A stretch of DNA of 64,000 nucleotides from positions 1 through 64,000 of IMG/VR virus record IMGVR_UViG_3300025141_016386; one strand, given 5' to 3'. A program made the translations under genes and the position numbers. The notes beneath the pieces were generated by a model that had not been told where the DNA came from, searched no databases, and worked only from the letters and a program-made list of their open reading frames with translations. Below are positions 11,387-62,016 of the stretch, piece by piece. The stretch's first letter is position 1; each line of letters opens with the position of its first letter. This stretch comes from a virus.

Positions 11387-14300
11387 TTAAGTTATTTTCC
11401 TCGACCCAACACTAATTGATTTTAGTGCTTGCGTTGGGATTTCTTCTATCGTCGCCCCCTTGGGCTCTTTTACACTTCTCTTTGCCTCCCTAGAAGGTGC
11501 ACGACCTGTTTCGCTACCTCGATGGTCGATATGTGCAGAACCGGGAGGTGCCGATAGAGAGGCCTCATTTCTTGTGATTAAGAAATAGGTATTTACCTCA
11601 ACCATATTTAATCCAAATGGGGTGTCGGGATTGTCCTTCCTCTCTACCATACACAAAAGAACATCAGATTTATTGTTTTTATTTTTCAAGTTCCTCAAAA
11701 TTTTAGACCACTCTTCCTTAGTGGGCGTTTTAAAGACTGGTCTTTTTATCATAAAATTACCATTACTATCATTTTTATATCCCGCGAAAACAGAAATGTT
11801 AGCTGCCATACCCTGAGTAAGGCTTTGTTTTGGCGAATCTTTGGGAGAGCTTGTTGAGTTTGACCTGTTTTTTATAAATCTTCCGGCGCGCCCACGAGAA
11901 GGGGAACCATTGGCTCTTGGAGTCGATGTATCAAATTTTCCGTTCGTGGCCATAATGTTTGCCAATTCTTGAAAGAGGGGTCCTGCATTGGATTCATTTT
12001 TATATAATTCCATCGCCGTTGCGCCATCGTCGGTGGTGGACGATTGGTCACATGATGCACCCTGTGGCGGCCTTGTACTTTTACTCTGCAAATCATCGGG
12101 GCCCAAGATATCTGATACCGGAATATTCAAAGATATCTTATTTTGACCTTTTGTTAAATTTTCTTGCGCTGCCATAGGGGTGCGGATAGGCTCGACTTGA
12201 ACGTTCAGAACACTCATCAGATGACCTAAATTGCCTTGATTTGTCGAATTGGTCGACGGTATGTGGCCAATAGACTGTGCTACAACTTTATTTTGAAATT
12301 CTGAATATTGCGACGGCTCATCATAATTATCTACTGCGATGGAGCGCTCTATATACGTCCCATCATTTGCGTCAAGAATCCCCGGAGTTATTTGGGGGAT
12401 GACTGGCGCCTGAGCTGGGGACGGCAATATCGTGTGTTGGACCTCTGTCAGTTCCTGGCTATCCTCGGGGGCCAGAGGTGCGCTGGTGACGGCGGATTTG
12501 GCGGCCTCCACCATCCCTTCTTCATCTTCCAGCCTATCTTCAAAAGTGCCAACAGTTACTGCCGCCACGGTCGTCTCTTTTTCGTCGAGGGCCATTTTAT
12601 CGGCATTTAAACTATCAAGATCTCCCTGTGCAGCGTATGGTGTGCCGGCGGGTGGATTTGGAGCGGATTTGGTGCCGCGTGAGTTGGCGAAGCCAATATA
12701 ATCCACGGACGGAAATGTAGATAGTCGTGCGTCAAATAGCTCAACAAAATAGTCCTCAAGTTCGATTACCGAAACCTTCGAATTCCTGGGTGTTCCTCTA
12801 CGCTTTGTTGAGGAATCTGGTATTTCTATCTCTGCGCTTGGGCCCATCATATCTCTGATTTTTTGAGTTAATAAGTCTATGGCGTCGATAACTGAAAGAA
12901 TAGTCTCTGAAGTAGCTATCGCCGGGTTCAACGAGCTGCGGAGCGAGAAGGCTGCTGACTTTGGATCAAAGGAGCTGGAGTATTTCTGCGGTTGGATTAG
13001 ACCAGGGCCTTGATCACGCGTGGGACCCTCTAGGGTGGATTTTTTTGAAAAGGAGCTGGAGTATTTCTGCGGTTGGATTAGACCAGGGCCTTGATCACGC
13101 GTGGGACCCTCTAGGGTGGATTTTTTTGAGCCCACAGTCTTCATTGTGAACCCCAAACTCGGGTTGTGGCCGGGTGTCGCGAATTGTTTTTGCTTTTGAC
13201 TAATAGGGTCGAAGTAAGCGCTGGTTCCCATCTCTGGATTGGTGGGTGCTATTCCGGTTTCTGAATTTGATTCTAATTTTGCTTGCGTTGTCATGAGGGA
13301 GGAGGAAGTTTGAATTCTTTTTGATGTAGATAAAAATGAAAAATCAGAGATTGCCGTGAGGGTGTCGACGATATATGCCGGAGCGAGAATCCACGGGTAT
13401 AGCCGCTCTTTATCTTTCAGATTTCCAATTAACATTCCCATTTCTCTTCCCAACCCTGCAATTTCTGCCCTCTGCTCTCGGTCTACTCGGTCGCGTCGAT
13501 GAGAGGATAATTCATCTAACAAGACGTCATAATATTCTTTAACAGATTTTATTCTTTCATAACTCTTTGTTGGTATTTGAACTAAATTATAATATCCCAC
13601 CAGATATTCCCTAATTGATCTAAGTCTCTTGAGCCTCTCATTTAAGAATCGGATTGTGCCGTCTTCTATTTGTATTTTTACGCCGTATTGAAATGTTCCG
13701 TCTGTAAGATCCCGGATTGATGTGTCAGTGACTGCTATTGTTTTTGTTTGGCGGGGGGAATTACTTATCGGCGGCAGTTCTTTTATGCCTCCTATTAGAT
13801 TATTTTTCTTGTTACCTCTCAAGAATCTCCCCGCCCCAAACGCCCTCATTTCTTTTAGGGCGTTGTTTTTTGATTGATCGGAATAAGTTTCCACGATTAT
13901 TTGAGTTTCAAGATTTAATTCACTCCTACTTATTCCAAGATTTGCCGAAGATAACCTATTATATCCCCTTGCGACCTCAACCTGCCTTCTTGTGATTTGC
14001 AGATTTGTTATTTTTGAATATAAACTTATTTTTTGCTTTGTTTCACGCGAGACAAAAGGGTTTGTTAAAATTTTCCCGAATTTACTCTCCTTAATAAGGG
14101 TATTTTCATAATCAAATTCAAAAATAAATTTACAATTATTATTTCTATCCCTGGATAAGAACGCGTTCGAAATATACGCATCTGGATTTTCGATTGAATT
14201 GTCAAAAACATCCCTGCCTTTAATAACTATTGGGGAAGTTCTGGATTGTACCAAATTCACATTGAGGCTCGGCATTTTACGAAGTATTCTGAGGTCTTGT

Positions 14301-15088
14301 ATTTTTGTATTTTCTACCTCTATTTTTTCCAAATCTATTTTTGGAGATGCTTGCTTTAACTGGGGGGCGCCATTGGGTGTAGGCATCCACCTTGCCGCAC
14401 ACCAAGTTCCCGGAGCGTTGCCGTTTTTTATTTCCAAAACCGGACCTGACCAGAAAGTTCCTCTCAGTTCTTCTGGGAATTGAGACCTTACATAAAAAAT
14501 GTAAGAGACAGAGTTAACTCGGCCACTCGAAATAACCCTCTCTCCGGCGAGAGGGCCAGTTGTTGGCCCTAGGGCTGGGACGTTTGCTATTCCTAACGTT
14601 TTTGCTAAAGATTCTAGGTCCAGATAACAGAATGCGTAATAAGAAAGGTGTGGGATATTTTCTGAATCTTCTATAGTGTCTTCTCTTTGAAATGAGACTT
14701 TGGTTTCTTGATTTTGTGATTTGTTGTCTTTTAAAATATTTTTAAGTGGGCCATGAAATATTTCTTTTACGGCGCCGGTATTGAGTGTTCCAGCATTCTC
14801 TGAAGTTTCTATCCTTTTTGATTCTTGGGCGCTAGTGGACCTAACAACACGAATATTCATATGATCAATTAAATTAACATTCGAGGAGAATAGAGAGTTG
14901 GACATCTTTATGTTCATGCTCATATCTAAATCAATGGCTAAACTCGATCTTTCGCCCCCGAGGGGCCCAGTAGTTTGGTTTTTTAAATCTAGAGTTATTT
15001 TATCAAAAGTAACCGCCGGAATTATCGATGCTACCGTATCATTCGATAAGATTGCGCCCGATGGGGATATCGATGTATACACAGCCAT
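11387..15088 (-). CDS. large virion protein with in-frame repeats
   Basis: A 1233-residue protein with mixed beta-rich and low-complexity regions. The middle contains a perfect tandem 27-residue duplication (around residues 655-710, STLEGPTRDQGPGLIQPQ), preceded by the segment shared with the 875-residue protein. The short peptide TTGPL[GA]GER occurs near residues 37 and 178, the second encoded by DNA holding two adjacent hairpins. The C-terminal third is rich in Pro, Ser, Asn and Ala and looks disordered. No enzymatic motif was recognised. It lies between the 330-residue and 875-residue structural proteins and is probably a tail or baseplate appendage component. Confidence 0.68.
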   Translation of the reverse strand: MAVYTSISPSGAILSNDTVASIIPAVTFDKITLDLKNQTTGPLGGERSSLAIDLDMSMNIKMSNSLFSSNVNLIDHMNIRVVRSTSAQESKRIETSENAGTLNTGAVKEIFHGPLKNILKDNKSQNQETKVSFQREDTIEDSENIPHLSYYAFCYLDLESLAKTLGIANVPALGPTTGPLAGERVISSGRVNSVSYIFYVRSQFPEELRGTFWSGPVLEIKNGNAPGTWCAARWMPTPNGAPQLKQASPKIDLEKIEVENTKIQDLRILRKMPSLNVNLVQSRTSPIVIKGRDVFDNSIENPDAYISNAFLSRDRNNNCKFIFEFDYENTLIKESKFGKILTNPFVSRETKQKISLYSKITNLQITRRQVEVARGYNRLSSANLGISRSELNLETQIIVETYSDQSKNNALKEMRAFGAGRFLRGNKKNNLIGGIKELPPISNSPRQTKTIAVTDTSIRDLTDGTFQYGVKIQIEDGTIRFLNERLKRLRSIREYLVGYYNLVQIPTKSYERIKSVKEYYDVLLDELSSHRRDRVDREQRAEIAGLGREMGMLIGNLKDKERLYPWILAPAYIVDTLTAISDFSFLSTSKRIQTSSSLMTTQAKLESNSETGIAPTNPEMGTSAYFDPISQKQKQFATPGHNPSLGFTMKTVGSKKSTLEGPTRDQGPGLIQPQKYSSSFSKKSTLEGPTRDQGPGLIQPQKYSSSFDPKSAAFSLRSSLNPAIATSETILSVIDAIDLLTQKIRDMMGPSAEIEIPDSSTKRRGTPRNSKVSVIELEDYFVELFDARLSTFPSVDYIGFANSRGTKSAPNPPAGTPYAAQGDLDSLNADKMALDEKETTVAAVTVGTFEDRLEDEEGMVEAAKSAVTSAPLAPEDSQELTEVQHTILPSPAQAPVIPQITPGILDANDGTYIERSIAVDNYDEPSQYSEFQNKVVAQSIGHIPSTNSTNQGNLGHLMSVLNVQVEPIRTPMAAQENLTKGQNKISLNIPVSDILGPDDLQSKSTRPPQGASCDQSSTTDDGATAMELYKNESNAGPLFQELANIMATNGKFDTSTPRANGSPSRGRAGRFIKNRSNSTSSPKDSPKQSLTQGMAANISVFAGYKNDSNGNFMIKRPVFKTPTKEEWSKILRNLKNKNNKSDVLLCMVERKDNPDTPFGLNMVEVNTYFLITRNEASLSAPPGSAHIDHRGSETGRAPSREAKRSVKEPKGATIEEIPTQALKSISVGSRKIT
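12971..13129 (-). repeat. perfect tandem repeat, 81-bp period, in frame
   Basis: Copies at 12971-13048 and 13052-13129 are identical over 78 bp, with a 3-bp junction. The period is 27 codons. Perfect identity at synonymous positions indicates recent duplication or ongoing homogenisation. The unit holds an ACCCT/AGGGT inverted repeat around CTAG and is more GC-rich than its surroundings. It sits about 55 bp from the segment shared with the neighbouring gene. Confidence 0.93.
13184..13271 (-). repeat. second copy of the 88-bp shared coding segment
   Basis: Partner of 11071-11158, about 2.1 kb away in the next gene upstream, same orientation and same frame, one mismatch by eye. Confidence 0.9.
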
Positions 15089-49316: not shown

Positions 49317-49933
49317 GGCACAACAATTCTATAACACTGTCTTTGATATATACCAGAAGAACCCGGTACATTAACAAAACACTCCCCCTCTACTTCCAAA
49401 GACGGGACGAAAGATTTCCAAATTGACAAAAATGGGGCGCGCCAATAAAAGTCTTTGGACCCTCGATAAGAACAAGAGATAGTTTCCGGGCTATAGTCTT
49501 CGATTCCTAAAATATATTTATTACTACATCTTATCATCTCTACCATAGCCGCAGGTAGACTGTTTTCTGGATTTTGGTGGATCAACACCCCCGAAGAGAA
49601 TATAACGTCAAAAGAGCGATTCTTGAATGGCAGCTCCAACAGGGATCCAAGATGAAAATTTACATTTGGTAATCTTTTTTGAGCCTCTGCAAGGGCGGGG
49701 GCCCCGATGTCCAATCCAGACAGATTAGTGAATCCCAAGTTGTCGAGAATTTGTAAATTTATTCCACAATTGCATCCAACCTCTAAAATAGAAATATCTC
49801 TATCGAAGGAGTCAAAAAGATCATAAAAAGCTTTCCTCTCCTCGTATCTCCCGTCTCCATCAAAATTTCTCCCAAGATAAGAGGTACCCTCCGTTCCAGC
49901 CCAGAATATCTCTTGTTTGGTCTTAGTTCGCAT
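49313..49933 (-). CDS. SAM methyltransferase, pseudaminic-acid-associated type
   Basis: The start is set at ATG 49931-49933 (MRTKTKQEIFWAG) because GAGAGGA precedes it; a TTG two codons earlier is less likely. 206 residues. ILEVGCNCGINL is motif I for SAM binding, and LPFKNRSFDVIFSSGVLIHQ covers motifs II-III. The N-terminal KQEIFWAGTEGTSYLGRN strongly resembles the TIGR03587 family, described as methylases of pseudaminic acid gene clusters. Methylation of the sugar acid is inferred. Confidence 0.75.
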   Translation of the reverse strand: MRTKTKQEIFWAGTEGTSYLGRNFDGDGRYEERKAFYDLFDSFDRDISILEVGCNCGINLQILDNLGFTNLSGLDIGAPALAEAQKRLPNVNFHLGSLLELPFKNRSFDVIFSSGVLIHQNPENSLPAAMVEMIRCSNKYILGIEDYSPETISCSYRGSKDFYWRAPFLSIWKSFVPSLEVEGECFVNVPGSSGIYQRQCYRIVVP

Positions 49934-50891
49934 CTTCAATTCCTCTCACGATTAAACAAACCAGATTATCAACATCGATATCCAAATGAAGAGAAGAATT
50001 AAATTCTCTACCATCATATGATTCACTGTGTGTGTGTGTTTTATTTGTGTATTGTGGCAGAACCGCGAGCAAGCCACCATCCACCTCTCTCGTAAATGGA
50101 AGCTCTGTCGCGGCCAACATATCTTCGTGTAACTTTTCTCCGGGGCGCATGCCAATATTTTTAATTGTAATTTGATCACTTTTGGTAATTTGTTTTACAG
50201 ATTGAATAATAGTATTCATGGAGAATGATTTAATTTTTGGAATAAATACCTCACCTCCCTGCGCTTGATTTAGGGCGCTAAGGACAGTATCTACCGCATC
50301 CCCTAGAGTAAATAAAAATCTACTACACTCCTCCGAAGTGACTGTGATTTCCCCGCCTTTTTCAATTTGATCAATCCACAGTGGGATAAATGAACCCCTA
50401 GAGGCGATCACATTGCCATACCTTACTGAGGCGAAGATGGTCGATTCGGAATTATAATCATAATTGGTGAACATTCTCTCGGCGATGAATTTTGATGAAC
50501 CATATACATTTACAGGCTGGCATGCCTTATCTGTGGAGATAAGCATACACTTTTTAACTGAATTTTCGAAAGAGGCTATGGCGACGTTTTCACTTCCGTA
50601 AACATTTGTTTTCATACACTCGTCTGGGTGAAATTCCATATCATCGACTCGCTTAAGTGCTGCTGCATGGATTACATAATCTGGCTTATGAATTCTCATT
50701 GTAGTGTTGAGTTTTTTAAAATCTCTTACGTCTCCGATGACGCACTTTACTCTCTCTACATTTTTAAATATTTTAGCCTGCTTTCCCTCATCTCGACTAT
50801 AGACAATTACAGTGCTGCTGGGGTCTTTTAGGATTTTTTTGATAAGAGCTTTTCCCAAAGAGCCAGTACCACCTGTTATGAAATATTTCAT
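49923..50891 (-). CDS. pseB: UDP-GlcNAc 4,6-dehydratase, PseB-like
   Basis: 322 residues of the PseB/FlaA1/CapD short-chain dehydrogenase group. GGTGSLG (7-13) binds NADP, YSRDEGKQ (31-38) follows as in PseB, HAAALKRVDDME (75-86), STDKA (119-123) and YGSSK (130-134) give the catalytic Asp/Lys and Tyr-Lys residues, and RYGNVIASRGS is the signature loop. PseB removes C6 hydroxyl with inversion at C5, the committed step of pseudaminic acid synthesis. The retaining LegB-type route cannot be fully excluded. Coupled to the glycosyltransferase gene upstream (ATGA). Confidence 0.82.
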   Translation of the reverse strand: MKYFITGGTGSLGKALIKKILKDPSSTVIVYSRDEGKQAKIFKNVERVKCVIGDVRDFKKLNTTMRIHKPDYVIHAAALKRVDDMEFHPDECMKTNVYGSENVAIASFENSVKKCMLISTDKACQPVNVYGSSKFIAERMFTNYDYNSESTIFASVRYGNVIASRGSFIPLWIDQIEKGGEITVTSEECSRFLFTLGDAVDTVLSALNQAQGGEVFIPKIKSFSMNTIIQSVKQITKSDQITIKNIGMRPGEKLHEDMLAATELPFTREVDGGLLAVLPQYTNKTHTHSESYDGREFNSSLHLDIDVDNLVCLIVRGIEDAN

Positions 50892-52927
50892 TTGATTTCT
50901 AACCTTTCTATTGAATCTGGGGCCGGATTGATGTTAGAGATTATTTTCAATGTTGTACCTTTCGAGTTCAACCAATCTGCGAATGGGCCAATAGCATCGG
51001 AAGTGATTTTTGCCTCATGTTCCAGAGTTTTAACTGCTTCTTCATTTTCAGCCACCTCATTGTGGTGGATAAAATCGTTCTTATTGTGAGAACTCCCCTC
51101 TTTGTCATAGAAATGTTGCTTGTCGGCGCCGTCTGGCAGCAAAGAGTTATCCCACCCAACTGTAATAATCTCTGAAACACCTAAGTGTTGTGCTAAATAG
51201 AACACGGATTCATACATAATTCCGGGGCCATATGGGCGCAGTACTGTTGAATTTTCATAAGTGCCAGCCTCTAGGTCTCCGGTTGCAGAGATCGATTTAT
51301 TAAAATCCCTCTCTCTAATAAAAAACTTGAGATCGCACGGGCCAAGAGGGCGAGGAGTCGTAGATGCCTCAACCACAATCGGATTGTTTGTTGAATAATC
51401 ATAGTTCTTGAAGTTGGCACAATTGTAGGTATGAAAATCCACATGCTCTCCGAACAAATCAAATGCCTGCTTTACAGAGATTACGAGATTATCTTTCAAT
51501 AGGCTTTTTAGTTTTACCTCATCATGATCAGTCAGTGTTGGGCCGCAGGATAGAATATAACATTTCTTTCCCTTAAAGGAATCTTTTAGTAATTCAATCT
51601 TCTCTGTTTGAGAGTTAAGTTCGGTGATTGCCAATTTTAGGGAAGCTGCCCTTTCTTTAACATTCTCAATTTCTAAGATCGAATCCCTAACTTTCGATAT
51701 ATTTTCAACATTATTAATTCCCGGAAATACGCCCTCTACAAATTGAGAGTTTATCTTTTCTTCAGTGAAATTCTCGACGAGGTGTTTCTGCAACTTCTTT
51801 GCATTTCTCTTGAATCTGGAATATTCCTTACGAACTTCACGCAACCTCCGCTTAAAAGATCCCTCCCTTGGGAAAGCCCATTGAGAGTCTGCTTGAATAA
51901 CGTTATTCCAAACTGCCTCTTTCTGAACATTTTGAAGGTCATATTCAACAGATGCGAACATTGGTTTCTTTTTCCCCGATTTTCTTCGAGCATCTGGCAT
52001 ATAAAGGAAATCACAGTGACCCGACCATCCGGAAACAACTACTGGCAATCCATTGTAGGCTGCCTCAAATAGTGGGAGGCCGTAGCCTTCTCCGTGTGCC
52101 GTGGAAACAAGTGCCTTAATTTTGGAATGCTGATATAGGCCGTTCATTTCTTCCGGAGTTAAATCTCCATGCAAAAGATATACCTTACACTTACAGTTGT
52201 CTCCTCCATATCTTTGAAGCAGAGATTTGAGCCTTGATCCGGTGTGCTCCCTGTCAATGATGCTATTATTTTTGACAGAAGTCTTAAGGACAAGTCCAAC
52301 TTCTTGATCAAAATTCTCTTCCAGGAACCACTTGACGAGGTTATCAAAGTTCTTTCTTGGGCCCCATTGGGAAATTGCAAGGTAATTGAAGTCGTAATCG
52401 AGCTTTAAATTGAGTTTTTGTTTCTTGAAATTACGAACAGGATAATTGACTGCGATAATTGGTGTCTGACAGGTCAAATTAACAATCTGGCCTGTTTGAT
52501 TATTTTGTCCCTGATAGGTTGTGTCTTCAAAAACATCCTTCGAGTGATTCGAGACGACGATGATCTTATCCATCTCGTTAGCTTTTTGAAGCCAAACCGG
52601 AGCTACCTTTGTCGTCTCGATCCCTGCGGTATACCCGACATTTACTGTGGCTAGTCGCTCCCACTCATTGGGGATTGTTACCTGCAACGACATATCAAAT
52701 TGGCCGCCCTGCTGGGTGAAGACATGTGTTTGCGCGATCCTTTGGTCCATCCATGTTCTTTCTTCGTTTGCATCACTTACCCAGCCGGTCTGGCCCCACA
52801 CCGTGGGAATAATATAAATGTCAAATATATCCTCCCTAGATTTTAATGCTCGAAGGGCAAATCTCGCCTGCTCTCCATATCCAGATTGCGAAAGAACTGG
52901 ACCTCTTACTACTATTTTCTGCTTCAT
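50888..52927 (-). CDS. bifunctional glycosyltransferase: GT4 fused to DUF115/Maf-like domain
   Basis: Start set at ATG 52925-52927 (MKQKIVVRGP), with GGAG 8 nt upstream and ATGA overlap. About 679 residues. Residues 1-405 are a GT-B family 4 glycosyltransferase, with the nucleotide-sugar loop HGEGYGLPLFEAAYNG near 278-293. Residues about 450-640 form a second domain beginning GKKCYILSCGPTLTDHD and containing VFYLAQHLGVSEIITVGWDNS, as in DUF115/MAF_flag10 and GT42-like proteins. Bacterial Maf proteins put pseudaminic or legionaminic acid on flagellin. The fusion could add a linker sugar and then the nonulosonic acid to one target. Confidence 0.75.
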   Translation of the reverse strand: MKQKIVVRGPVLSQSGYGEQARFALRALKSREDIFDIYIIPTVWGQTGWVSDANEERTWMDQRIAQTHVFTQQGGQFDMSLQVTIPNEWERLATVNVGYTAGIETTKVAPVWLQKANEMDKIIVVSNHSKDVFEDTTYQGQNNQTGQIVNLTCQTPIIAVNYPVRNFKKQKLNLKLDYDFNYLAISQWGPRKNFDNLVKWFLEENFDQEVGLVLKTSVKNNSIIDREHTGSRLKSLLQRYGGDNCKCKVYLLHGDLTPEEMNGLYQHSKIKALVSTAHGEGYGLPLFEAAYNGLPVVVSGWSGHCDFLYMPDARRKSGKKKPMFASVEYDLQNVQKEAVWNNVIQADSQWAFPREGSFKRRLREVRKEYSRFKRNAKKLQKHLVENFTEEKINSQFVEGVFPGINNVENISKVRDSILEIENVKERAASLKLAITELNSQTEKIELLKDSFKGKKCYILSCGPTLTDHDEVKLKSLLKDNLVISVKQAFDLFGEHVDFHTYNCANFKNYDYSTNNPIVVEASTTPRPLGPCDLKFFIRERDFNKSISATGDLEAGTYENSTVLRPYGPGIMYESVFYLAQHLGVSEIITVGWDNSLLPDGADKQHFYDKEGSSHNKNDFIHHNEVAENEEAVKTLEHEAKITSDAIGPFADWLNSKGTTLKIISNINPAPDSIERLEIK

Positions 52928-54189
52928 TTTGTAATCTCCGTGAATGCCCAAGGCTTATATCCCTTTCGTGTTTCCCAAGAGCCGTGGTCTTCTACGACCG
53001 AATCGATCAGATCGATCCACTGCTTTTGGAAGTTTTCAAAATTGTAATTTTTTGCGACGTGTTGTCGACCTTTCATGCCTAAAAGCTTCCTTTCTTCGGG
53101 GCTCATCGAAAAAACGTCTCTCAGAGCCTGTATAAAGTCTTCCTTGGAAACCCTATCCTCATAGATGTATGGAACCTGTTGAGAGCCTATGATGGCCTTT
53201 GAGGCCGGCGTGAGGCCTATTCCAAACCATTGTTCCCCGTCTGTGACTTGTTCCTGCAATCCACCCGTCATATTGACGATAATTGGGGTTTGACAAGAAA
53301 GACTTTCAAGTGTTGCCAATCCAAATCCCTCTGCATCTGAAATATTGATGGTGCAATCTGCCATATTATACACTGATGCAAGAGCTTGTGCTGCAATTTT
53401 ATTTGTCGAAAGAATTACGCGGCCGTCAGTGGCCCCAAGATTATTTAGAATGGCCTCTAAGTCTTGTCCGTTTGGATCTTTGGGGTCTGTATGCATGATA
53501 AGTCGTACTTTTTCTGGTCCAACTTCTTCGGCGAACTCATTAAACCAATGGATTAGTGAGCCGCTCATCTTCCGGCGTGCATTCCTGTTGTTCCAGAAGA
53601 AGATTACCCGGTTATCTGTGTCTCCATCTAAATGTTTTTCTCGCAGTGTTTTGATGTCCTCGTCTGAAAACGGACGAAAAATACTGGTATCTACAGCATG
53701 TGGAACATAGTGATTCTCAACATGAGGAGAAACATTGTTGACAATATCGTGTGTAACTTTTGAGATTGATGCAATAACATCTGTCGAACTATAAAATTTA
53801 TTGTTGAACTTCGGAAGAGGATAATTGTCCCAAACATGATAATAAACCATAGGAATATGCTTTCTAATTTCATTCTCGATCATCCATAGCCACCCGTAAA
53901 ATCGAGGATCCGTCATAAACCAAATCATGTCAGGGCGCTCGTTGAAGAGAGCAGATCGAACCATTTCTGGCGTTCCATATCCTTTCACAGGATATACAAT
54001 CCAGTCTTCTTCCCATCCTTCTACCTTTTGAGGTTTATAATCTTTATGGGCAACTGCTCCACCAAGACATACAACTTGATAGCGACCGGTCTTCAGCAAT
54101 GTTTCAATAATATACTTTGTTTGTGTGCCGACTCCCGATGGAGCCAGCGGGTGATCAGAGATCACCAAAATCTTCTTTTTTTCTGTCAT
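52924..54189 (-). CDS. glycosyltransferase family 4
   Basis: 421 residues. The N-terminal half begins KKILVISDHPLAPSGVGTQTKYI, the acceptor-side Gly loop of GT4 enzymes; the C-terminal half has SDAEGFGLATLESLSCQTP, the E-x7-E donor-binding motif. It would transfer a hexose or amino sugar from a nucleotide donor. AGGTTTAA precedes the ATG. It is the first gene of the sugar island after the PD-(D/E)XK nuclease gene. Related enzymes in phages may modify virion proteins, DNA or host surface glycans. Confidence 0.85.
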   Translation of the reverse strand: MTEKKKILVISDHPLAPSGVGTQTKYIIETLLKTGRYQVVCLGGAVAHKDYKPQKVEGWEEDWIVYPVKGYGTPEMVRSALFNERPDMIWFMTDPRFYGWLWMIENEIRKHIPMVYYHVWDNYPLPKFNNKFYSSTDVIASISKVTHDIVNNVSPHVENHYVPHAVDTSIFRPFSDEDIKTLREKHLDGDTDNRVIFFWNNRNARRKMSGSLIHWFNEFAEEVGPEKVRLIMHTDPKDPNGQDLEAILNNLGATDGRVILSTNKIAAQALASVYNMADCTINISDAEGFGLATLESLSCQTPIIVNMTGGLQEQVTDGEQWFGIGLTPASKAIIGSQQVPYIYEDRVSKEDFIQALRDVFSMSPEERKLLGMKGRQHVAKNYNFENFQKQWIDLIDSVVEDHGSWETRKGYKPWAFTEITK

Positions 54190-56350: not shown

Positions 56351-57721
56351 TTATAAAATCTTCGAGGCCAGTGTCGCGATTGCAGAACGTTCGCCCTTTT
56401 TAAGGGTTATGTGGCCTGCTAATTCTGACGTTTTGAATTTTTCTACGGCATGAACAAGACCTGTGGATGTCTCATCAACATAAATATTGTCAATTTGCTC
56501 CACATCCCCGGTTAGAACTATTTTCGTGCCCTCCCCAACGCGCGTCATAATTGTTTTAATTTCGTGCGAAGACAGGTTTTGGGCCTCGTCGATAATAATG
56601 TAGGCGTTAGAAATTGACCTTCCTCGAATATAAGTTAGAGCCTCTATTTCGATAGTTCCCCTTTCGGCGTATTCTTCAATGGTTAATTTATCACTACCCA
56701 TTATAAATTGTAAATTATCTTGAATTGGCATTAACCATGGATGCATTTTTTCTTGTAAGGTTCCGGGTAAAAATCCAATATCTTTTCCCATTGGTTGGAC
56801 CGGTCTTGAAATTACTAGTTTTTTATAAGGACTTTCTCCGGTGGTTTCGAAGGGGTCGCGAATTACTTGGGAAATACCAGCAGCGATTGCCAGAAGAGTT
56901 TTACCACTTCCAGCTTTGCCAACAAGGCTTACAAAAGGGATCTTTGGATCCAACAGCAGGTCAAATGCGAATGCTTGCTCTTTATTTCGGTGTCGAACAC
57001 CCCAGAGGCCCTTTTTGTCAATTGTATATAACATTTTCAGTGGATGTCTTGGGCCCACAAAGCGCGTCAATGCTGACTTTTTTTCATTTGAAGAAGAAAC
57101 CAACATAACTAATTGATTTGGAAACAGCGTCTCGGCGACATCCAAACATTCAGTAAAAATGTCCTCCCCCAGATAAAATCGATCGATTATTTCATCATCG
57201 ACCAAAATTGATGCGGAGCCATCATAAAGACTGGAATTATCATCCAAAACCTTATCTGAAGTATAGTCTTCTGATTTTATTTTTAAAGAATCACAAATAA
57301 CCCTCATATTGATATCTCTAGATACCATGATAACTTCCATATCGGGGTTGTTAATTGTAGCCAACAAGGCTGTTGAAATTATGATGTGATCCGCGACATC
57401 ACTGACTAAGTCCTCTGGCAACAAATTCTTGTCTCCGGAAGACACCCTCAACGTGGCCAAATTTGTCTCGGATAATCTAACCCCTTCCTGAAGGTTTCCT
57501 CGATCTCTCAATGTATCGAAAATCTTTATGATTTTTCTGGCTGTGAGACCGACAGCATCTTGTCTTTTTTTGTGATTATCAATCTCTTCCAAGACTTTCA
57601 GGGGAATGATAATATTGTTGTCTTCAAATTTATATAAACAGGAAGATTCTGTTAGGCAAACGCTTGTATCTAATACATATATTTTGTTGCTCATCTGATT
57701 ATAACTAGTTTGTTCTTGCAC
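56351..57721 (-). CDS. phoH: PhoH-family ATPase with N-terminal PIN domain
   Basis: 456 residues. About 13-150 are a PIN RNase domain (YVLDTSVCL, KVLEEIDNHK, IMVSRDINM provide the acidic residues). About 240-456 are the PhoH RNA helicase-like ATPase with Walker A GKAGSGKT (268-275), SRPVQPMGKDIGFLPG and Walker B IIIDEAQN (375-382). The PhoH2-like PIN-PhoH arrangement binds and cuts RNA in bacteria. PhoH genes are frequent in marine phages. The first possible start is GTG at 57719-57721; ATG nine codons later is the alternative, and neither has a strong ribosome site. Confidence 0.88.
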   Translation of the reverse strand: MQEQTSYNQMSNKIYVLDTSVCLTESSCLYKFEDNNIIIPLKVLEEIDNHKKRQDAVGLTARKIIKIFDTLRDRGNLQEGVRLSETNLATLRVSSGDKNLLPEDLVSDVADHIIISTALLATINNPDMEVIMVSRDINMRVICDSLKIKSEDYTSDKVLDDNSSLYDGSASILVDDEIIDRFYLGEDIFTECLDVAETLFPNQLVMLVSSSNEKKSALTRFVGPRHPLKMLYTIDKKGLWGVRHRNKEQAFAFDLLLDPKIPFVSLVGKAGSGKTLLAIAAGISQVIRDPFETTGESPYKKLVISRPVQPMGKDIGFLPGTLQEKMHPWLMPIQDNLQFIMGSDKLTIEEYAERGTIEIEALTYIRGRSISNAYIIIDEAQNLSSHEIKTIMTRVGEGTKIVLTGDVEQIDNIYVDETSTGLVHAVEKFKTSELAGHITLKKGERSAIATLASKIL

Positions 57722-58855: not shown

Positions 58856-59024
58856 TTAATTTTTCCTCCAAGCATTGCTTAATTTTTAATGTTTTTTCCA
58901 GATCTGGGTTTCCATATGCCATAGTCATCATTGACCAGGAAACCACAGATGCGATTACTGATCCTACCAAGACCCCCAAACCAAAGGCCAAGTAGGATTT
59001 TATGAATTTCTTAAATAATTTCAT
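58848..59024 (-). CDS. 58-residue single-span membrane protein
   Basis: ATG at 59022-59024 overlaps the end of the ClpP-like gene by 14 nt; the stop at 58848-58850 overlaps the start of the nucleotidyltransferase gene by 8 nt. Basic N-terminus (KLFKKFIKS), a hydrophobic helix (YLAFGLGVLVGSVIASVVSW), and a charged C-terminal helix (DLEKTLKIKQCLEEKLNE). Exact coupling to both neighbours supports it as real. Function unknown; an inner-membrane anchor or superinfection-exclusion type protein is possible. Confidence 0.68.
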   Translation of the reverse strand: MKLFKKFIKSYLAFGLGVLVGSVIASVVSWSMMTMAYGNPDLEKTLKIKQCLEEKLNE

Positions 59025-59625
59025 CTACAAGGCCGTATTTAAGACATGTTTCTGCGTCCCACCACAAATCATGCTTTAATAATTTATCCAACTCTTTCTT
59101 TGGAATCTTAGTGTGATTTTCATAAATCGAAATAATCATCTGCATGAGCCTATCGTTATTTTCCATACTGTCTTTTTGTTCTTGGTATTTTCCCCACATG
59201 CCAGAGGATAACTGATGGATTAACATATAAGCATGCTTATTAATTTGCCTGTGGTTTGCTGTGACACTCATGATTGTAGCAGCGGAAGCAGCACAGCCAT
59301 CGATTACTGATACTGTTGGTACTTTACAATTGCGGATATAATCAACAGATGAAAACCCAGCAAACACAGACCCCCCATAAGAGTTAATATGGAGGAAGAT
59401 CTTACGGGGATCTCCACCAGCTAGTTGGGCGCCATGGAGAAGATCATTTTCTAGACCTTTGAGGGCCAGATTTAATTCAAGATTTTTAGCTCTAGAAACT
59501 TCAGAATAAAAATAAATTTTATTATGCTTCTTCTCAATTTTATTATTATCATCAGGCTTTGCATTTTCCAAATCAGAACCCGGGACGTGTGTTGGCAATG
59601 AAGCCCAGTAAATATCTCTTAGCAT
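59011..59625 (-). CDS. clpP: ClpP-like serine protease
   Basis: 204 residues, the usual ClpP length. The catalytic triad can be read as S114 (DGCAASAAT), H137 (YMLIHQLS) and D186 (LKHDLWWD), followed by the conserved YGLVDEI end. SYGGSVFAG replaces the usual NSPGG oxyanion strand (N81, S82, G84, G85). ClpP degrades proteins with a Clp ATPase; in phages ClpP-like enzymes can serve as head maturation proteases, but no head genes are adjacent here. It may instead redirect host proteolysis. Confidence 0.87.
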   Translation of the reverse strand: MLRDIYWASLPTHVPGSDLENAKPDDNNKIEKKHNKIYFYSEVSRAKNLELNLALKGLENDLLHGAQLAGGDPRKIFLHINSYGGSVFAGFSSVDYIRNCKVPTVSVIDGCAASAATIMSVTANHRQINKHAYMLIHQLSSGMWGKYQEQKDSMENNDRLMQMIISIYENHTKIPKKELDKLLKHDLWWDAETCLKYGLVDEII

Positions 59626-61454: not shown

Positions 61455-61483
61455 ATTATACTATTTTTCCTTTTCTTTGTCAA
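61455..61483 (-). promoter_or_regulatory. perfect-consensus sigma-70 promoter and 180-nt leader
   Basis: TTGACA (61478-61483) and TATAAT (61455-61460), minus strand, 17 bp apart, overlapping the 3' end of the HTH gene. A second TATAAT lies at 61424-61429 without a good -35. The leader to 61266 contains a GGGATC/GATCCC hairpin (around 61388-61411), an ATTGG/CCAAT hairpin and the possible leader peptide, but no recognised riboswitch. Confidence 0.85.
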
Positions 61484-61832
61484 CGAAATAGTCATCAATA
61501 CCAAATTTTTTTCTTAGGATGTGGAAAGACTGCTCTTTTAGTCCCAAGAAGCGCATTGCTTCGGCCTGAGTTCTTGTAGCTGAAAAAGCATATTTGAAAA
61601 CCGCGTCTTGTACAATGGCCTGTAGGGAATTCCAAATGGGTATACCATATAGTCGGCCTGAGACAGGTTTGGTTGAAAGCTCTAATTTGAGAGCTATTAC
61701 TTCTTCTAGTGTTAAATTGGACAGCATAATTTCGAACTCATCGTTAGATCGTCTTTCTTTTTTAAGTTTATTACTTATGCTATAATTTTTATTTTTACCA
61801 TTATAGTTTTTCTTTCGTTTCCAAGAAATCAT
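61461..61832 (-). CDS. Fis-type HTH DNA-binding protein
   Basis: 123 residues. The N-terminal 30 residues are strongly basic (SWKRKKNYNGKNKN). Residues about 76-112 (AVFKYAFSATRTQAEAMRFLGLKEQSFHILRKKFGI) match the Fis/HTH_8 helix-turn-helix. Middle residues 35-55 (MLSNLTLEEVIALKLEL) may dimerise. It probably regulates transcription of phage or host genes. Its mRNA has an unusual G-free repeat leader directly upstream, which could contain its own binding sites. Confidence 0.78.
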   Translation of the reverse strand: MISWKRKKNYNGKNKNYSISNKLKKERRSNDEFEIMLSNLTLEEVIALKLELSTKPVSGRLYGIPIWNSLQAIVQDAVFKYAFSATRTQAEAMRFLGLKEQSFHILRKKFGIDDYFVDKEKEK

Positions 61833-61852
61833 GATAACCTATATTAGTATGC

Positions 61853-61975
61853 TTAGTGTGATTAAGTATTAGAGTGTTTATATATTAGAGTGTTTAGGGT
61901 GTTTATATATTAGAGTGTTTAGAATGTATAGAGTGATTAGTGTGATTAGAATGATTAGTGTTATTATAAATATAA
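61853..61975 (-). repeat. 123-nt G-free leader with degenerate 9-mer repeats
   Basis: The plus strand lacks any C from 61853 to 61975, so the transcribed RNA lacks G. It is built of about a dozen units near TTAGAGTGT or TTAGTGTGA (plus strand) interspersed with TTATATA, including a perfect 24-bp duplication (61874-61897 and 61899-61922, 25-bp period). It lies between a promoter and the ATG of the HTH gene; AGG lies 5 nt before the ATG. Confidence 0.9.
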
Positions 61976-61997
61976 CAACGTTATTGCATCTTGTCAA
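61969..61997 (-). promoter_or_regulatory. sigma-70 promoter for the HTH gene
   Basis: TTGACA (61992-61997) and TATATT (61969-61974), minus strand, 17 bp apart. Expected start near 61962, giving a 5' leader of about 130 nt made of the G-free repeats. Confidence 0.84.
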
Positions 61998-62016
61998 GAA
62001 AAAAGATGTAATTTTT

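Follow-up and report, generated by a model that had tools for sequence, protein, structure and literature searches.

Why would a virus carry, just ahead of the gene for a helix-turn-helix (HTH) protein, 123 nucleotides without a single G? The question was raised by an earlier note on the window, by which we mean the whole 64,000-nt stretch analysed here (positions 1 to 64,000 of IMG/VR record IMGVR_UViG_3300025141_016386). The extent given there is exact, once refined to the minus strand: a direct count in the window finds zero C on the plus strand over exactly 123 nt (61853-61975), so the minus strand, which is the coding strand, contains no G there, and the genes flanking the run all lie on that strand. 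Elsewhere in the window the longest stretch lacking C or G measures 57 nt, and in 60 simulated windows (second-order Markov) the longest such run averaged 53 nt, with a maximum of no more than 71. The run is indeed as improbable as the earlier note's "vanishing probability" implied, but its cause, as set out below, is a repeated G-free word and not a constraint against G.

The run forms part of a promoter and leader read from the minus strand. The end of a gene for a 300-aa acidic protein (62919-62017, minus strand) is the upstream neighbour of a near-consensus sigma-70-type promoter, TTGACA-17-(TG)-TATATT (61969..61997, minus strand; 11/12 matches, with TG preceding the -10). Directly upstream of this promoter an A/T tract, read directly as AAAAAATTACATCTTTTTTC (61998..62016, minus strand), may possibly serve as an UP element; a comparable tract occupies the equivalent position in the related contigs L001, L002 and L032, and partly in L005 and L007. 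Downstream of the -10 lies a leader of 136 nt (61833..61968, minus strand), with the mRNA start predicted near 61962. Because the G-free run as first noted takes in the -10 hexamer (61974-61969), its transcribed part begins near 61962. The window leader has no strong Shine-Dalgarno (SD) sequence and a predicted fold energy of -1.9 kcal/mol, and no known RNA family was matched at it. A further promoter, matching at 12/12 positions (TTGACA-17-TATAAT; 61483-61455, minus strand), sits at the end of the HTH gene, and the leader that follows it contains G. Elsewhere in the window we noted a perfect 81-bp tandem duplication (12968-13129) within an ORF at 11387-15088 (minus strand), whose protein has a duplicated 27-aa stretch; two glycosyltransferase genes and a nucleotide-sugar epimerase gene in succession (49923-54189, minus strand); and a PhoH-PIN gene (56351-57721) with a head-maturation-protease-like ClpP gene (59011-59625) nearby.

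Within the leader we found a tandem array of 9-mers, A-Y-W-C-T-A-A-W-C (61841..61960, minus strand), spaced at 9 nt with some units shortened. Eleven units are CTA-anchored, with spacings of 9, 9, 9, 9, 9, 16, 9, 16, 16 and 9, and about 14 are present once degenerate ones are counted; TRF reports a period-9 array at 61843-61966. A nucleotide search and an exact 18-mer of the window returned nothing useful. We also considered a coding array and rejected it, since TAA comes up repeatedly and a reading frame would not survive the spacings of 15-18.

The same arrangement of promoter, leader of ~9-nt units and HTH gene is present in nine uncultured phages (the window and L001, L002, L003, L004, L005, L007, L008 and L032), with leaders of 98-147 nt. 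A promoter of 10-11/12 matches occupies the equivalent place in 7/8 relatives; the contig of L003 stops inside the leader. A recognisable SD is often absent from the relatives' HTH genes. A cyclic profile fitted to the nine leaders gives the unit consensus A-Y-W-C-T-A-A-W-C over about 105 units, some of which lose one or two bases, and departures from it affect some 5% of positions. Unit spacing is 9 in 59/83 intervals and mostly 15-18 in the remainder. Within the clade's arrays the units are tandem direct repeats of fixed orientation, and the unit has no dyad.

This unit accounts for the missing G. Leader cores contain 0-2 G each and about 26% C, yet at the 638 positions where the motif does not call for C there are 6 G and 7 C. 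As G is not depleted relative to C outside the C positions, the lack of G is a side effect of the motif, and an extreme anomaly of base composition such as 123 nt without G can stem from the repetition of a recognition word and not from selection on the composition of the RNA. The W positions hold A or T in 205 cases, C in 1 and G in 6. This pattern, in which A and T are interchangeable but T is not replaced by C, would be typical of minor-groove or shape readout of double-stranded DNA and odd for single-stranded RNA.

We collected HTH homologs in viral contigs twice, obtaining 33 and then 69 loci in two overlapping sets. In a 72-row tree the nine array carriers form one clade (support 98/93), and the array was found in 0/63 further homologs. 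The nine arrays share one origin, and since units spread through duplication, their counts are not independent observations. Unit turnover is fast among near-identical genes, which makes the clade a natural series for the evolution of an operator array. The earlier note had named lack of conservation in related phages as part of what would count against it; within the clade the repeats are kept. Two other homologs, in L087 and L097, have near-perfect sigma-70 promoters with the -10 finishing a few bases short of the HTH ATG, and their HTH mRNAs are possibly leaderless.

In each genome the tandem motif occurs at a single locus. In the two long contigs used, G005 (193 kb) and G009 (168 kb), no other G-free run is as long as the leader (131 and 134 nt), the next being at most 74 nt. 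Other strong promoters of these two genomes are followed by 9-30 G within 100 nt after the -10, and many have a short, SD-bearing leader. An unbiased scan of 2.9 million viral contigs for 27-mers made of three perfect units yielded six stretches, four of which are clade leaders, the others being in L035 and L038. Given a single tandem locus per genome, a scan that returns mostly clade leaders and G in the leaders of other promoters, the array is an element specific to the HTH gene alone. In three genomes the 10-mer motif was no commoner outside the array than chance predicts, and together with the single array per genome this fits a cis operator of one gene. A strict scan for other G-free leaders of >70 nt after consensus promoters, designed so that leaders as long as the clade's were excluded, gave five stretches, none with the motif. 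In L165 (4089-4226, minus strand) a G-free leader with tandem repeats of about 20 nt follows a consensus promoter and precedes a HAD-phosphatase-like ORF.

The candidate ligand of the array is the protein encoded directly downstream (61461..61832, minus strand), 123 aa long, Fis/NtrC-like and with a basic N-terminal tail. Its AlphaFold model (pLDDT 82) is all helical, with a long helix at 66-85 followed by helices at 89-96 and 100-109. A profile of the protein matches the NtrC DNA-binding domain (4l5e) weakly (E 0.27), and a fold search places Fis on top, also weakly (E about 5). Across its family, HTH_28 is matched by 8/34 members (weak profile matches) and HTH_8 by 6/34 (best E 3.6e-4), the window protein itself being without an HTH_8 match; no BldC/MerR match was found for it, the family's best being HTH_28, HTH_8 and Fis. 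The protein can safely be called a helix-turn-helix protein, and is likely of the Fis/NtrC type. The clade is marked by His104, which falls in the putative recognition helix, and by the tail NYNGKNK (NYN tail), but as marks linked to the array both are confounded by common descent. A search of 50,697 phage records found no match to the protein, and no cultured phage has it.

Based on these observations, we consider it about an even call that the array is a double-stranded DNA operator, a set of docking sites for cooperative, head-to-tail, autoregulatory binding by the downstream HTH protein. About 14 head-to-tail 9-bp sites would span the DNA from just past the transcription start of this very strong promoter to the start codon of the HTH gene. 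Binding would be cooperative, with each protomer of the protein occupying 9 bp, and the resulting filament would block the protein's own promoter or early elongation. Such negative feedback would allow strong initial firing followed by shut-off once protein accumulates, and the G-free, SD-poor leader RNA would be a by-product of the G-free recognition word. Autoregulatory sites for a Fis-like protein had been one of three ideas in the earlier note, and it is the best supported of them, although the binding, its cooperativity, the repression and the timing are what we infer. The conservation of promoter, array and HTH gene as a set in the nine-phage clade and its absence from the 63 homologs argue for it, as do the A/T tolerance at the W positions, the yield of the unbiased scan, the lack of motif enrichment elsewhere, a reversed 9-mer upstream of a distant homolog's gene (L112, below), the Fis/NtrC-HTH-like character of the protein and the precedent of BldC. 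Against it, the arrays lie wholly inside the transcript in 9/9 clade members, which is where an RNA element would be; the usual sites of HTH_8/Fis proteins are inverted repeats occupied by dimers, whereas the unit has no dyad; and the Fis-like fold match is weak.

More tentatively still, and with considerable doubt, we propose that the 9-bp direct repeats filling the whole 5' leader of the gene are covered by a head-to-tail filament of the gene's own product, a Fis/NtrC-type HTH protein of large phages, with a burst of expression and then a filament-type shut-off. Head-to-tail filaments on direct repeats have been described for BldC and, to our knowledge, not for Fis-like domains. The locus offers a compact test of whether an HTH domain of the Fis/NtrC type can form head-to-tail polymers along short direct repeats.

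The reversed units belong to an HTH homolog in L112 that is 46-47% identical and lies outside the array clade. Upstream of its gene GATTAGTATA occurs three times at 10-bp spacing; its complement contains ATACTAATC, an exact unit, so that the units run opposite to the gene. This array is non-coding and occurs nowhere else in its 185-kb contig, and a random tandem 10-mer of L112 composition contains the unit word with P 0.0016. Arrays of this 10-bp-period kind form six stretches in the whole viral collection, only L112's adjoining an HTH homolog, and L112 is the sole non-array homolog whose HTH gene is preceded by a clear short-period array outside coding sequence. As a possible independent case of the array-HTH association it is suggestive rather than proof, because the array was recognised after the motif was already known and because the motif is not enriched upstream across the 63 non-array homologs beyond L112 itself. 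If the case holds, orientation would be irrelevant and G-free RNA would not be the conserved feature. In L174 and L175, near a 10-bp-period array, ACTCTAATC units at 10-bp spacing lie close to a DnaA-box-like TTATCCACA and look like replicon iterons.

The main rival, which we regard as rather unlikely, assigns recognition to the leader mRNA: its UAA word every 9 nt would be coated by a single-strand-binding protein (SSB), the phage's own of gp32 type, or by another sequence-specific RNA binder, and translation blocked as for T4 gp32. This would explain why the array exactly fills the interval from predicted mRNA start to ATG in 9/9 phages and why the leaders are predicted to be unfolded (about 0 to -2.2 kcal/mol) and lack a strong SD; gp32 is encoded by both G005 and G009. 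The T4 gp32 operator itself has UUAAA/UAAA repeats in an unstructured stretch (PMC535899), and in another phage group the gp32 gene (PF08804; L040-L044, L046) is preceded by CTAAACAYWCTAAACACT, in which two units of the 9-mer kind lie downstream of a hairpin and ahead of the SD. However, the gp32 leaders of G005 and G009 are repeat-free, a strict 9-mer with A/T and not C at W exceeds the need of a sequence-tolerant SSB, and L112 has the unit word on the opposite strand. RB69 RegA selects UAA triplets in SELEX, as far as a reference listed in PMC3014915 indicates, and RegA was not found in 15 records by a search that had no positive control. As separate observations, the CTAAACAYWCTAAACACT variants in the gp32 leaders of L040-L044 and L046 vary at the identical Y and W positions, and the gp32 leaders of L071 and L073 have AGAGATTTGT...ACTTTAGC around a hairpin in common, which may be a pseudoknot operator absent from Rfam.

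It is less probable again that the array serves some other DNA-binding factor of host or phage (e.g., a host repressor, a BldC-like or a ribbon-helix-helix (RHH) protein) acting only here, with the HTH protein as the regulated product. Similar promoter-array leaders do precede other genes, a MazE/AbrB-like gene in L061 (an Omnitrophota MAG) and an 80-aa ORF in L035, and the WATCACW heptads of ParB-omega (PMC9499535) overlap AATCACW, a common unit here. Across millions of contigs such promoter-array leaders before other genes are rare, and slippage may have produced them; against this reading the association with the HTH family recurs in L112. The L061 locus (about 430-565) consists of TTGACA-TATACT, several ATACTAAWC-type units, an RBS and the MazE/AbrB-like gene, followed by an efflux-type operon; that in L035, an unrelated contig (10329-10434), has a promoter-like sequence, an array of ACACTAAAC units, an SD and the ORF, which has no family match.

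We think it very improbable that the G-less, C-rich leader matters as such, whether as a Rho utilisation site or as RNA kept free of G for stability or pause-free transcription. The near-absence of G at a C content of about a quarter, and the G found after other strong promoters, would suit this idea, which the earlier note had also raised; it is weakened by Rho-preferred YC dinucleotides falling below the shuffle mean in 9/9 leaders and by the base counts outside C positions, which make a separate anti-G constraint unnecessary. T4 origins combine a promoter with an AT-rich tract. The remaining idea of that note, that the array forms the iterons of an origin, is equally improbable, as is the array serving as an AT-rich unwinding element (R-loop-like): the promoter and AT-rich tract and the adjacency of direct repeats to a DNA-binding-protein gene resemble an origin, but neither a GC-skew inflection nor a change in gene orientation occurs at the array in G005 and G009, the homolog loci outside the clade lack it, and a T4-type SSB is present with no initiator seen. 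Two further candidates were rejected: -10-like sigma pause elements, by the reasoning that W-C-T-A-A-W has C where a -10 needs A, and a likeness to boxA/NusB (CUCUAAACA against CUCUUUAACA), as CTAA is preceded by T in no more than about half of the units.

Among known systems, the Fis/NtrC DNA-binding domain (Pfam HTH_8) resembles the C-terminal half of the protein weakly in profile and fold; unlike Fis/HTH_8, the window protein has no profile match and the phage sites are direct repeats without a dyad. The leader is like the T4/RB69 gene 32 translational operator (PMC535899, PMC3014915) in that words containing UAA recur along an unstructured 5' leader ahead of the gene, and unlike it in having a strict 9-mer and a weak or absent SD. 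The 5' pseudoknot nucleation site of the gp32 operator is impossible here because the leader is G-free, and, in contrast to T4 autogenous control, the gene behind the leader encodes an HTH protein and not an SSB, gp32 being encoded elsewhere with a repeat-free leader.

The proposed autoregulatory DNA operator has two precedents. The parS/operator sites of ParB-omega (pSM19035) are WATCACW heptads in arrays over the binder's own promoter (PMC9499535). Both systems have tandem short non-palindromic repeats (7-10 in ParB-omega) at the promoter of the binder, or here of the candidate binder, and a common phage unit contains AATCACW. The phage array differs in its period of 9 and its unit A-Y-W-C-T-A-A-W-C, against contiguous 7-bp heptads, and no RHH or ParA gene was seen adjoining it, whereas ParB-omega is an RHH protein acting with ParA in partition. 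In Streptomyces, protomers of the MerR-like winged HTH protein BldC each bind a 9-bp direct repeat head to tail, at sites made of an AT-rich tetramer, 4 bp and C (PMC5859096). The phage array likewise consists of 9-bp head-to-tail direct repeats in variable copy number beside the gene for a small HTH protein, its unit reads TAAW-CAYW-C (an AT-rich tetramer, then C 4 bp later), and the AT positions are degenerate. It differs in its 11-14 units, each lying beyond the transcription start, to which the protein would putatively bind, and in a protein that is Fis/NtrC-like and not a MerR-like winged HTH; the comparison is one of how the systems work only. Because each BldC protomer takes 9 bp, the steric objection to 9-bp direct repeats as sites for an HTH protein is answered, and with the precedents of BldC and ParB-omega we therefore favour an autoregulatory DNA operator.
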